This document shows, in pieces, positions 6,935-24,047 of a stretch of 64,000 nucleotides of DNA; the first letter of the stretch is position 1, and every line of letters begins with the position of its first letter. This DNA comes from Chitinophagales bacterium. GTDB taxonomy: Bacteria; Bacteroidota; Bacteroidia; Chitinophagales; CAIODY01. The stretch lies in assembly GCA_026461075.1 (NCBI GenBank), contig JAPJNH010000141.1:1-64000 (forward strand), given 5' to 3'. Position numbers and translations under genes: made by a program. The notes under the pieces are model-generated. The model was not told where the DNA came from. It worked only from the letters and a program-made list of their open reading frames with translations, and made no database searches.

Positions 6935-7741
6935 ATGCATCGTCAAAAATTAAGAGCAGATAGGGTAGTCGTAATTACAGGCGCAAGCTCTGGAATCGGT
7001 GCTGAATTTGCACTGCAATTGGCTCAGTCTGGTACACGTTTATATCTTGTCGGACGTGATATGCAACGATTAGAAAAAGTTGCGCACGAAGCCTCTCTTC
7101 AAGGAGCTTCTTCCATCTGTTTGACTTGTGATATGTCTAAGCCTACGGAGGTAGAGAAATTAGTTCAAACATTATCCCGTGCCGAAGCTCATGTAGATTT
7201 ATTGATCAATAACGCAGGTCTGAGTCAACGAGGCTATGCTGCTGAAACTAGCTTGGAGGTCGATCGCTACTTGATGGAAGTGAATTATTTTTCAGCGATC
7301 ATCCTTACAAAAGGACTGCTCCCGCTATTACATAAGAGCACGGCTCCGAAAATAATTATTCTAAGCAGCTTATCTGGAAAGTTTGGATTCTTTCAACGTT
7401 CCGCTTATGCTGCTTCCAAACACGCCTTGCATGGGTTCTTCGAATCTTTGCAGGTAGAGAATTATGCGAATGGCTTACGAATTACATTAGCATGTCCAGG
7501 GCGCGTGCAAACGCCTATTTCTATGAATGCCATGAAAGGGGATGGTTCTAGTCATAATCAAATGGATGCTGGTCAGCAAAATGGCATTCCAGTGGATGCC
7601 TGTGTTAGTCAAATTTTAAACGCGTCTAGCAAAGGTCGATTTGAAGTGATTATTGCACAAAACGAAACGCTACTACTACGTTTGAAGGCCATTTCTCATC
7701 AGCTGTTTTTTAAATTAGCACAAAAAGTAAAAGATAAATAA
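6935..7741 (+). CDS. SDR family NAD(P)-dependent oxidoreductase
   Basis: VVVITGASSGIGAEFA, NNAG, SSLSGKFGF..SAYAASKHA (YxxxK). Confidence 0.93.
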   Translation: MHRQKLRADRVVVITGASSGIGAEFALQLAQSGTRLYLVGRDMQRLEKVAHEASLQGASSICLTCDMSKPTEVEKLVQTLSRAEAHVDLLINNAGLSQRGYAAETSLEVDRYLMEVNYFSAIILTKGLLPLLHKSTAPKIIILSSLSGKFGFFQRSAYAASKHALHGFFESLQVENYANGLRITLACPGRVQTPISMNAMKGDGSSHNQMDAGQQNGIPVDACVSQILNASSKGRFEVIIAQNETLLLRLKAISHQLFFKLAQKVKDK

Positions 7742-8802
7742 TGCAATCAGTTTTCGCAGGGATACAACAAGTTGGAATTGGAGTAAGTGATGTTGAACAA
7801 GCTTACCAATGGTATAAGAAACATTTCGGAATGGATATTCCTATGTTCCGTGATAGCGCAGAAGCTAAATTAATGGTGCGCTATACAGGCGGTGAAGCAC
7901 ATCGTAGAACAGCTTATCTTGCGCTTAATGTTGCAGGTGGTGCCGGTTTTGAAATTTGGCAATATACGAGTCGTAAACCTCAGCCCGCAAGTTTTCCAAT
8001 CACCCTATCAACTGCTGGAATTGTAGCGGTTAAAATGAAGACGCGTTCCTTAACGCAAGCAGCTAACTTTTTCGAGAATCAGCATGTAAACTTGCTTCAA
8101 AAGAACTTGGAGGATAATAGTTTTAAAAGCCTTTGGCTGACTGACCCTTACGGGAATTTGTTTCAATGTGTAGAGGATGAAAACTGGTTTGCAGAACCAC
8201 TTTCAGCAGCAAGTACGGGTGGCGTAGTTGGAGCAGTGATTGCAGTGAAGGATATGGACAAAGCACTTGCTTTCTATAAGAAGGTGCTTAATCTTGATCA
8301 AGTAATTTATGACAAGACAGGAGTCTTTGAAGATTTGAAAAATGTGCCAGGAGGAAAGTCTAATTTACGTCGTGTATTATTGACCCAAAGTCAAGGTGTG
8401 ACAGGAGCGTTCTCACGTATGCTGGGTCCTTCTCAGATTGAATTAATTTGTACGGACGAGTGTAAAGAACAGCCACATAGCTTTGCAAATCGCTACTGGG
8501 GTGATTTAGGTTATATCCATTTGTGTTTTGATACGATTGGAATGAAAGCACATGAGAATAATTGTGAAGCCTTAGGATACCCTTTAACAGTTAATAGTGC
8601 TGGTGCCTTTGATATGGGCGAAGCTGCTGGTCAATTTACCTACAATGAAGACCCGGATGGTACATTGTTGGAGTATGTTGAAACCTTTAAAATCCCGATG
8701 TTAAAATCAATTGGATGGTATCTCGATTTGCGCAAACGTGATTCTATGAAGCCTCTGCCGAATTGGATGTTAAAAACGCTCCGCTTTAATCGCGAGAAAT
8801 AA
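7741..8802 (+). CDS. VOC family protein with two glyoxalase/dioxygenase-fold domains
   Basis: IQQVGIGVSDVEQAYQWYKKHFGMDI and VIAVKDMDKALAFYKKVLNL (two betaalpha-beta modules); ..YNEDPDGTLLEYVE; start overlaps SDR stop (TAATG). Confidence 0.88.
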   Translation: MQSVFAGIQQVGIGVSDVEQAYQWYKKHFGMDIPMFRDSAEAKLMVRYTGGEAHRRTAYLALNVAGGAGFEIWQYTSRKPQPASFPITLSTAGIVAVKMKTRSLTQAANFFENQHVNLLQKNLEDNSFKSLWLTDPYGNLFQCVEDENWFAEPLSAASTGGVVGAVIAVKDMDKALAFYKKVLNLDQVIYDKTGVFEDLKNVPGGKSNLRRVLLTQSQGVTGAFSRMLGPSQIELICTDECKEQPHSFANRYWGDLGYIHLCFDTIGMKAHENNCEALGYPLTVNSAGAFDMGEAAGQFTYNEDPDGTLLEYVETFKIPMLKSIGWYLDLRKRDSMKPLPNWMLKTLRFNREK

Positions 8803-8822: not shown

Positions 8823-8850
8823 AAAAGGCGCCCAAATGGGCGCCTTTTTT
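8823..8850. terminator. Rho-independent terminator
   Basis: AAAAGGCGCCC AAAT GGGCGCCTTTT perfect 11-bp stem plus T-run. Confidence 0.88.
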
Positions 8851-8873
8851 TATGCGGTTTTTTGTCAAAAGAC

Positions 8874-8924
8874 AACATTGATACGCCCTTTTGTAACGTT
8901 TATACATTAGTTCGCTACGTTCAT
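8874..8924 (+). promoter_or_regulatory. Triple direct repeat matching the LytTR-type response-regulator binding consensus
   Basis: AACATTGAT (8874-8882), AACGTTTAT (8895-8903), TACGTTCAT (8916-8924): exact 21-bp period, 12-bp spacers. Copies 2 and 3 fit [TA][AC][CA]GTTN[AG][TG] fully; copy 1 has one mismatch. Confidence 0.68.
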
Positions 8925-8934
8925 ACAATCTCCC

Positions 8935-8964
8935 TTGCAGGCAGCTAGGATGCCTATACTTTTG
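8935..8964 (+). promoter_or_regulatory. Bacteroidota sigma-ABfr-type promoter
   Basis: TTG (8935-8937) - 19 bp - TACTTTTG (8957-8964), matching TTG-N19-TAnnTTTG; 72 bp upstream of the ATG at 9037. Confidence 0.75.
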
Positions 8965-9036
8965 TACTATCATTCAAACGAATTGAGTGACTGGAGTGCA
9001 GATGCCAAGTAGAGTATGCAGAATAAATGAGTGAAA

Positions 9037-9930: not shown

Positions 9931-12555
9931 ATGAAAAGTTCTATGAAAATCGGTCTGATAAGCGTGCTGCTTAATCTTATGTGTGTTGCATGCGTTCCTA
10001 ACTCTTATGCTCAAACGCGTGGAGGTAATGATTCCCTCATGATATCATCAGGAGGCTTTCTTTGGAATCGCGCTGCGCAGTACACAAACTTGTCGAAATT
10101 TAAAGGAGATGTTCGGGACTCCATTGCCGACGCTCCTTTAATTCGGCAGGTATTATTTGAATCACATCAAGCACAAGTCAATAATAGGTACCCAAGAGTA
10201 GATGTTTTACAAAGGAAAAGTGATTCCCTGTGGAGTACTTCTCATACACTTTGCCTGCAATATTTTGCTGCTGAAGTCAATCGCTATCAAGATAGTAGCT
10301 TATTTGTTTCACAAAATTGGGATACTCTAAAGCATTGTTTTGTATATCCTCAAAATTCAAAATTCACCCTTCAAACCGACACTTTAGTTGTAATGGGAAG
10401 TTTGTTGGATTCTATAAATCAAGCGAGTTTTTCTGTCGTTCTTGATAGTACTTTTATTCAAAAAAAATGGAGAAGTAATTTGCAGCTATTTGTTTCTTTG
10501 GATGATACCTTGCATTATAGCCCGATTGCTCCAGGTAATCCATTAAACCTTGTACTGGATAGCACTTATACACTGCACCGCTTGTATTGCAAGGCATTCA
10601 ATGGTAACAAGGTTTTGTATAGCTCCGCTCAAATACTTTATACGAAGTCTTCTTTCGTTTTTCCTAATCCTGATCAGATAATACCTATTAACGGGACCAT
10701 TCCCTTTAAAGGGCAAATGGCTAGTTTGGAAATGGGGGTTTGGAAGAGCTGTTTGAACACGGTAGGATTCAATCAGCCTGTATTAATTGTCGAGGGATTC
10801 GATCCGCAAAATAGTCGTAGCCTGCTTTCTAGCCAAAGTGCCGCCAATAATTTGTATTGCATATCTAATGCATCTGTATCTAATCATACCAATATGTTGG
10901 ATAGTCTACGTGCCTATGGGCATGATGTCTTGATTGTTGATTTTAAAGATGGCGGGACCTATGTCGAGCAGAATGCGCTGGCATTAATAGAAGCACTGAA
11001 TTATATCAATGCTCATAAAGAAGGAAAGGATGAATTAACCATCGTGGGAGCGTCTATGGGAGGACTTGTAACTAGGTATGCCTTGCTTTATATGGAGCGA
11101 CATCAAACACCGCATCATTGCCGATTATGGATAAGTTTTGACAGTCCGCATCAAGGGGCAAATGTGCCGATTGGCTTGCAAATGATGATTGATTTTATTT
11201 ATAATAACCTTTCGCAAATGCCTTATGCTATTCAAAAGCAAGTGCCTCCGTTGCGAGACGAAGTTTTGAACTGTCCTGCAGCAAGAGAAATGTTATTAAC
11301 GCATTATTCTCAATTGAAGTTAGGTTCTAATCAGCCTTGTCCAGAGTTTAAATCATTGTTTGATACCTTAAACACCTGGGGTTTTCCAACTTGCAGAAAG
11401 ATTAGCCTTTCTGATGGGAATTATTTTGGCGGAGATCAAGGGTTTGTGGCAGGACAACAACTAGTGCATTTTCATTTACCTGCGTACCCTTTATTTATCG
11501 ATATGAAGGCGAACGCTGTCCCACAATCATCGCAAACGCAATCCGTTTTTGATGGAACTATTAAACTCTTTGTCAAGGGGATTCCTGTTAATTTGGCAAA
11601 ATCAACCTATAAACTTAATGGGGGCAATGGAATTGATAATGCGTCTGGAGGCTCTAATTCTTTTCATATCGACGTTGCTAAATCGTTAGGAATTAGTTAC
11701 GGTCAAAGCACTTTAGGGAATTGCTTGATGCAAGAGGATAATTTCGTTCCAACACAAAGCGCATTGGCAATACAAAATGTTATGAATTATCAAACTCCTA
11801 TAAGTAGCTTAATGCCTAATTTGAGTTATAAGGGTAAAACACATAAAGCTGTCGTAAGCCCTTTCGACGTGATCTATTGTATGAAGAATTATTATTCTGC
11901 CAATAGGTATAGTACCATTAATAATGCACCGCATATCATAGGGGGCTTTGATAAACATATGATGCAAATTGTAAGTGAGGAGGTTATGAGTCGAGTTTAT
12001 TATTTGCAAAATATCCAATGGGATGCTTTGCATGAGGTGGAGGCAATGAATGTTGAAATCGGTGCGAATGTTTCAAGTCGTTTTTTATCTGGAGATTTTC
12101 ATTGTCAATCAAATGCAGATGCTACCGTAAAAGCGGTTAATCAAATTCATTTGCAGGACGGGGTCCGCATCCTTCATCCGGTAAAGTGTCATTTAACTTC
12201 CCAATCAACGCTATTCGATGCGAGCTGCATCCAGGTGGCTAGTACGCAAGCCTATAAATTTCAAAACCTAGAGAAGCTTACGGCTAAAAATGAAGGAATG
12301 CCTGTGCGACAAGCAGCGGGGACTTTCATTCATGTACAACCAAATCCAAGTAGCGCTCGCTTTGTGCTGAAGTTTGAGCGTCCTAATGCAGACATTCAAG
12401 TGATTGACATTTATGGGAAATTGATTTATGTGCAGCATGGTTTTAATAGCGGAGAAGTATTAGATCTTAAGGATCTTCCAGAAGGAATTTATTTTGTTAG
12501 TTTGCTCGGTAATCCTCTTTCAACCACAAAAATTATAAAACAAAACTATGAGTAA
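9931..12555 (+). CDS. Secreted alpha/beta-hydrolase (lipase/esterase-like) with T9SS type A sorting domain
   Basis: VLIVEGFDPQNSRS, nucleophile elbow TIVGASMGGLVTRYALLYME (GxSxG), SFDSPHQGANVPIG; C-term VQPNPSSARFVLKF...IYGKLIYV...LPEGIYFVSLLGNPLSTTKIIKQ. Confidence 0.83.
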   Translation: MKSSMKIGLISVLLNLMCVACVPNSYAQTRGGNDSLMISSGGFLWNRAAQYTNLSKFKGDVRDSIADAPLIRQVLFESHQAQVNNRYPRVDVLQRKSDSLWSTSHTLCLQYFAAEVNRYQDSSLFVSQNWDTLKHCFVYPQNSKFTLQTDTLVVMGSLLDSINQASFSVVLDSTFIQKKWRSNLQLFVSLDDTLHYSPIAPGNPLNLVLDSTYTLHRLYCKAFNGNKVLYSSAQILYTKSSFVFPNPDQIIPINGTIPFKGQMASLEMGVWKSCLNTVGFNQPVLIVEGFDPQNSRSLLSSQSAANNLYCISNASVSNHTNMLDSLRAYGHDVLIVDFKDGGTYVEQNALALIEALNYINAHKEGKDELTIVGASMGGLVTRYALLYMERHQTPHHCRLWISFDSPHQGANVPIGLQMMIDFIYNNLSQMPYAIQKQVPPLRDEVLNCPAAREMLLTHYSQLKLGSNQPCPEFKSLFDTLNTWGFPTCRKISLSDGNYFGGDQGFVAGQQLVHFHLPAYPLFIDMKANAVPQSSQTQSVFDGTIKLFVKGIPVNLAKSTYKLNGGNGIDNASGGSNSFHIDVAKSLGISYGQSTLGNCLMQEDNFVPTQSALAIQNVMNYQTPISSLMPNLSYKGKTHKAVVSPFDVIYCMKNYYSANRYSTINNAPHIIGGFDKHMMQIVSEEVMSRVYYLQNIQWDALHEVEAMNVEIGANVSSRFLSGDFHCQSNADATVKAVNQIHLQDGVRILHPVKCHLTSQSTLFDASCIQVASTQAYKFQNLEKLTAKNEGMPVRQAAGTFIHVQPNPSSARFVLKFERPNADIQVIDIYGKLIYVQHGFNSGEVLDLKDLPEGIYFVSLLGNPLSTTKIIKQNYE

Positions 12556-23978: not shown

Positions 23979-24047
23979 TCGCGATACGCGATATGCAATA
24001 TGCGATTTGTAATACGCAATACGCGATATGCGATTTCCGATATGCAT
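23979..24047. repeat. Degenerate tandem repeat: two 28-bp units with ~7-bp ACGCGAT/ATGCGAT sub-period
   Basis: Units 23986-24013 acgcgatatgcaatatgcgatttgtaat and 24014-24041 acgcaatacgcgatatgcgatttccgat (22/28 identical by eye). Confidence 0.85.

Follow-up and report, generated by a model that had tools for sequence, protein, structure and literature searches.

Known LytTR-type binding sites

The canonical site of LytTR proteins consists of direct repeats about 9 bp long, separated by gaps of 10-13 bp (PMC11347149). The published repeats are 9 bp long, mostly 12 bp apart, strongly biased to a position 10 bp before the -35 element and variable between GTT and GCT (PMC6193735). Such repeats stand ahead of the LRS operons, which encode a LytTR regulator together with a membrane inhibitor and are autoregulated. 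Among Bacteroidota, only Bacteroides yielded LytTR-type repeats in the literature examined, namely its LRS-like repeats (PMC6193735). Here we analyzed a stretch of 64,000 nucleotides (the window) from a Chitinophagales genome (G000; 2.5 Mb, 166 contigs), where an initial annotation had pointed to three LytTR-like repeats upstream of a promoter. Three genomes were compared in all: the host, its nearer congener (G002) and a more distant one (G001), both GTDB congeners being Chitinophagales MAGs.

The repeat array and its promoter

Direct reading of the sequence bore out the annotated repeats, three 9-mers that start 21 bp apart and are separated by gaps of 12 bp:

8874..8882, + strand: repeat copy 1, AACATTGAT, read directly; extended form CATTGATACG at 8876-8885; the weaker copy, probably auxiliary
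8895..8903, + strand: repeat copy 2, AACGTTTAT; extended form CGTTTATACA at 8897-8906; 8 of 10 columns invariant in the three species
8916..8924, + strand: repeat copy 3, TACGTTCAT; extended form CGTTCATACA at 8918-8927; 8 of 10 columns invariant in the three species

Against the consensus [TA][AC][CA]GTTN[AG][TG], copies 2 and 3 match in full and copy 1 carries one mismatch (A for G), as had been annotated. The window holds a single triple that departs from this consensus by no more than one mismatch, and 40 random 64-kb sequences contained none; a strict pair at 21-bp spacing is present once, with about 0.1 expected per 64 kb of random sequence. The reported absence of a second array also held across the window, where the array pairs scored 33 and 28 and the next pair 17 with a matrix that was built from the array and its relatives and favours the array by construction; the best pairs in random 64-kb sequences reached 11-15 with the same matrix. 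A genome-wide scan for strict LytTR pairs remained at chance (five matches, three in the reversed-pattern control), and the match to the LytTR consensus alone therefore carries little weight. The evidential weight of the array is in its internal repetition and its conservation, not in the consensus match. Elsewhere in the window (23984-24034), a 14-bp tandem repeat of 3.6 copies (ATACGCGATATGCA) was the only row returned by Tandem Repeats Finder.

The surroundings of the array were annotated as follows:

7741-8802: glyoxalase-family gene, upstream of the hairpin and the array
8825..8853, + strand: terminator-like hairpin with T-run, AAGGCGCCC-AAAT-GGGCGCCTTTTTTT, 3' of the glyoxalase-family gene, which it separates from the array
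8935..8937, + strand: TTG, candidate -33 element, 19 bp before the -7 box
8957..8964, + strand: -7 box TACTTTTG of the Bacteroidota type TAnnTTTG (consensus and position from PMC9723704)
9037..9927, + strand: first gene of the putative operon, an exported protein with a signal peptide-like start; the reading frame opens at GTG 9031, the likely start is ATG 9037
9931..12555, + strand: second gene, coding for a PGAP1/DUF676-like esterase that ends in a sorting tail for type IX secretion

The TTG begins exactly 10 bp past the end of copy 3, in agreement with the initial annotation. Since the -7 box has been mapped at -12 to -5 in Flavobacterium psychrophilum (PMC9723704), transcription would start near 8969, which would place the first bases of the three copies at about -95, -74 and -53. 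In Rfam, the hairpin draws terminator look-alikes only. An inverted repeat between the TTG and the -7 box (AGGCA-N7-TGCCT) was considered and set aside, being conserved in neither G002 nor G001.

Judging by their spacing, the first genes probably form one operon. The esterase is followed by two small ORFs, which complete this same-strand run of genes, and then by uppS and bamA; a similar esterase gene also follows in G001. Full-length orthologs of the first protein were found, among the species examined, only in the two congeners (76% identity in G002, 43-44% in G001), and a contig scan yielded no species beyond these two. Its C-terminal part is common to many proteins of the order; searches returned neither a Pfam family nor phage relatives, and the predicted structure (mean pLDDT 31) is unusable.

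Conservation of the array in the genus

Conservation of the 9-mers and of their 21-bp phasing in orthologous upstream regions had been named as a touchstone. It stands for copies 2 and 3, which keep their phase in both congeners; it falls for copy 1, which is out of phase in G001, and for the GTT core, which is broken. Specifically, GCT replaces GTT in the orthologous copies GACGCTTAT of G002 and AACGCTTAT of G001, while copy 1 retains nine of its ten positions in G002 (CCTTGATACG) and has its nearest likeness in G001 8 bp out of phase. Between the host and G002 the copies are 90-100% identical, compared with 52% in the terminator region and 48% in the interval that separates array and -7 box. 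The invariant columns of copies 2 and 3 likewise compare with about 20% in those flanks across all three species, and of all 21-bp pair frames in the region the one made up of copies 2 and 3 is the best conserved. What is conserved is the 10-mer CGYTYATACA, which extends past the 9-mer and whose two variable positions are both C/T. The distance from this 10-mer to the -7 box is 29 bp in the host and in G002 and 30 bp in G001, and the -33 TTG is at the same place in G002 and absent in G001. We consider it very likely, from sequence comparison, that this is a functional protein-binding array; it is phylogenetically footprinted and promoter-proximal, and most probably represents an operator for an activator.

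In the host, where the genome-wide work consisted of pattern searches and sampled stretches, all 19 other perfect CGYTYATACA sites fell inside coding frames, so that the pair at 8897/8918 is the sole intergenic occurrence. In G001, the 10-mer is established exactly 30 bp before TAnnTTTG, with no mismatch, at three promoters (0.017 expected from composition), two of which are independent, because the orthologous promoter helped to define the motif. The other two are:

G001:C290, 7577-7586, - strand: box before infC, 30 bp from TAnnTTTG
G001:C69, 4580-4589: box before a secreted-protein gene with an almost leaderless start; partners 21 and 42 bp upstream

All three G001 box promoters lack a -33 TTG, and a box at a fixed distance from the -7 element combined with missing -33 elements suggests an activator. 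Overall, CGYTYATACA occurs 31 times in G001 and 16 times in the reversed-pattern control, a ratio of about two. A wide regulon of the exact motif was rejected after CGYTNATAC pairs were counted in 100 relatives, their number outside the genus being about equal to controls; looser CRYTYAT pairs were at chance.

A DUF805b-like leader downstream of the array

Between the promoter and the first gene a second element was detected:

8993..9020, + strand: leader element resembling DUF805b RNA, GG-N3-GCA-N4-CC-N4-AGAGTA-TGC-A, identical in G002

The orthologous leader of G001 (L005, 1359-1391) is a member of RF02914 and passes the gathering cut-off (39.9 bits, E-value = 4.5e-10). The leader of the window has no match in Rfam at all. 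It shares with DUF805b RNA (RF02914) the site before the start codon, the GG...CC, the AGAGTA and the closing 3-bp pairing, and it differs in being without the GAAAA loop and in closing with GCA/TGC, not GCC/GGC; other leaders of the family close with GCC/GGC or ACC/GGT. A descriptor that demands the GG/CC stem, the AGAGTA and the closing 3-bp pairing immediately ahead of the start codon, which is our own reading and not the structure annotated in Rfam and which several family members fail, matches at 8993-9020, its single site in the window, and at no site in 30 random 64-kb sequences. These observations suggest that DUF805b-type RNAs can drift beyond the Rfam model with the closing pairing kept by compensatory change.

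Across the order, many unrelated genes have a DUF805b element in front of them. By eye, none of 23 leaders inspected was preceded by a CGYTYATACA array, and the leader and the array are for this reason best regarded as neighbours and not as one system. Additionally, four DUF805b elements lie within 1.7 kb at G003:C98 181-1852, some of them with no obvious gene immediately downstream, and clusters were also seen in G013:C7, G052:C6 and G016:C501.

The candidate regulator and alternative explanations

The presence of LytTR proteins, on which the initial annotation depended, was established: the host encodes two LytTR response regulators (G000:C87 and G000:C136), each beside a PF06580 histidine kinase, and orthologs of both occur in the congeners (both 89% identical in G002; 48% and 63% in G001). 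The number of LytTR genes differs within the genus, with 15 in G001 and two each in G000 and G002. The array is absent from both LytTR operons of the host. Autoregulation of the two operons in G000 and G002 was also considered and rejected, no pair being above chance.

As for the sites themselves, the description as LytTR-like is upheld by their geometry. The 12-bp gap and the 21-bp period are each realized twice, copies 2 and 3 are phased in three species, the array of the window ends 10 bp before the TTG, and the distance to the -7 box is a fixed 29-30 bp in the three species and at two more G001 promoters. Copies 2 and 3 of the window match the LytTR word, and their orthologous copies have GCT; neither the genome-wide pattern nor a matrix of the published LytTR repeats discriminates, the latter ranking the array pairs 376th and 538th of 127,942 in the window. 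In place of an LRS operon, the array is followed by the exported-protein gene, the esterase gene and small ORFs. A LytTR protein is plausibly the leading, if unproved, candidate for a site that is LytTR-like in geometry, and we put the chance that such a protein is the binder at about even.

The following model, an activator site driving the operon and most likely serving a LytTR regulator, appears to us about as probable as its negation. The regulator would bind the direct repeats along a single face of the helix, 21 bp corresponding to two turns, with copies 2 and 3 as the core pair and copy 1 as an auxiliary site. From about -53/-45 the bound regulator would contact RNA polymerase and so increase the output of the TAnnTTTG promoter, from which the operon for the exported protein and the type IX secreted esterase would be transcribed. 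The most likely regulator would be G000:C136 or G000:C87, the host's pair of LytTR response regulators. For a lineage known here from MAGs only, the array with its fixed distance to TAnnTTTG offers a concrete, testable operator together with a small set of regulators that may bind it.

A serious competitor, to which we give somewhat under an even chance, is that the array is a genuine operator of a protein outside the LytTR family, such as an AraC/XylS-type regulator, a MerR/BldC-like cooperative binder or an undescribed factor of Bacteroidota. CGYTYATACA is longer than the LytTR consensus and partly unlike it, the published LytTR repeats fail to single the array out, and the host encodes two HTH_18 (AraC-type) proteins, both on contigs other than that of the array. 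A period of about 21 bp is also possible for the paired sites of AraC/XylS-type proteins, and BldC-type proteins reportedly bind direct repeats. However, the length of the unit, the 12-bp gap and the 10 bp to the -33 element are LytTR-like, and the orthologous copies AACGCTTAT and GACGCTTAT resemble the published ACCGCTTAT. In a more specific proposal, which we regard as unlikely, CGYTYATACA at a 21-bp phase would be the operator of an undescribed Bacteroidota regulator that takes over from the -33 element at a few promoters, among them some that drive secreted-protein genes; at the present locus it would be combined with a DUF805-type pseudoknot leader into two layers of control.

It is improbable that the repeats are the operator of a repressor or a mere part of an extended promoter. 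A precedent is given by CoxC, a LytTR-type repressor whose operator has three repeats (PMC11347149), but this operator overlaps the -35 element and the array described here ends 10 bp upstream of the corresponding TTG; the G001 box promoters that do without a -33 TTG also suit activation. Finally, although iterons are direct repeats of similar period and one similar pair in G001 stands just before a small gene that resembles, by eye, a REP-associated transposase, a reading of the repeats as an iteron or mobile-element remnant, as RNA structure or as chance is very improbable, given that no triple arose in the 40 random sequences, that the array is tied to one gene in three species, that its flanks have diverged and its copies have not, and that the repeats fold no better than shuffles (z = 0.74). 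The G001 pair in question (G001:C271, 1198-1230) repeats AACGTTTAT at 21 bp (AACGTTTATTAAACGGTTTGGAACGTTTATACA), and the gene shortly behind it encodes 181 aa.

Comparison with known systems

The preferred candidate, a LytTR regulator, invites comparison with four described systems. The promoters of LRS operons (PMC6193735), exemplified by that of BrsR (ACCACTTAT-12 bp-ACCGCTTAT), share with the array the 9-bp repeats, the 12-bp gap and the distance of typically 10 bp to the -35 element, and it is their word ACCGCTTAT that the orthologous copies approach. The array differs in having three copies, not two, in the lack of a LytTR/LRS membrane gene downstream, in A and not C at the second position and in a conservation that continues to ATACA. 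In Escherichia coli, the probe of the yjiY promoter bound by BtsR/YehT (PMC4847170) contains, as read off its sequence, GCCGCTCAA, ACCGCTTAC and ACCACTCAG at steps of 20 and 21 bp, and the partner of BtsR/YehT is a LytS-type kinase, which also holds for the two regulators of the host; its consensus is unlike ours at several positions, and the target here is a secreted-protein operon and not a pyruvate transporter. CoxC/RcoM (PMC11347149) likewise binds three direct repeats through a LytTR domain, these being 8 bp long with gaps of 12-13 bp, although the word there is TTCNNGCA and CoxC represses from over the -35 element. The LRS-like repeats of Bacteroides (PMC6193735, Table 3) come from the same phylum and have the same type of -7 box (TATCTTTG, 19-bp spacing), with the repeats 11 bp before the promoter, but they consist of 11-bp words (TCCGGTATTCA/ACCGGAAATCA) with an 11-bp gap and their sequence is unlike that of the array. 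Set beside these systems, the array is a fresh example of an already known type of site.
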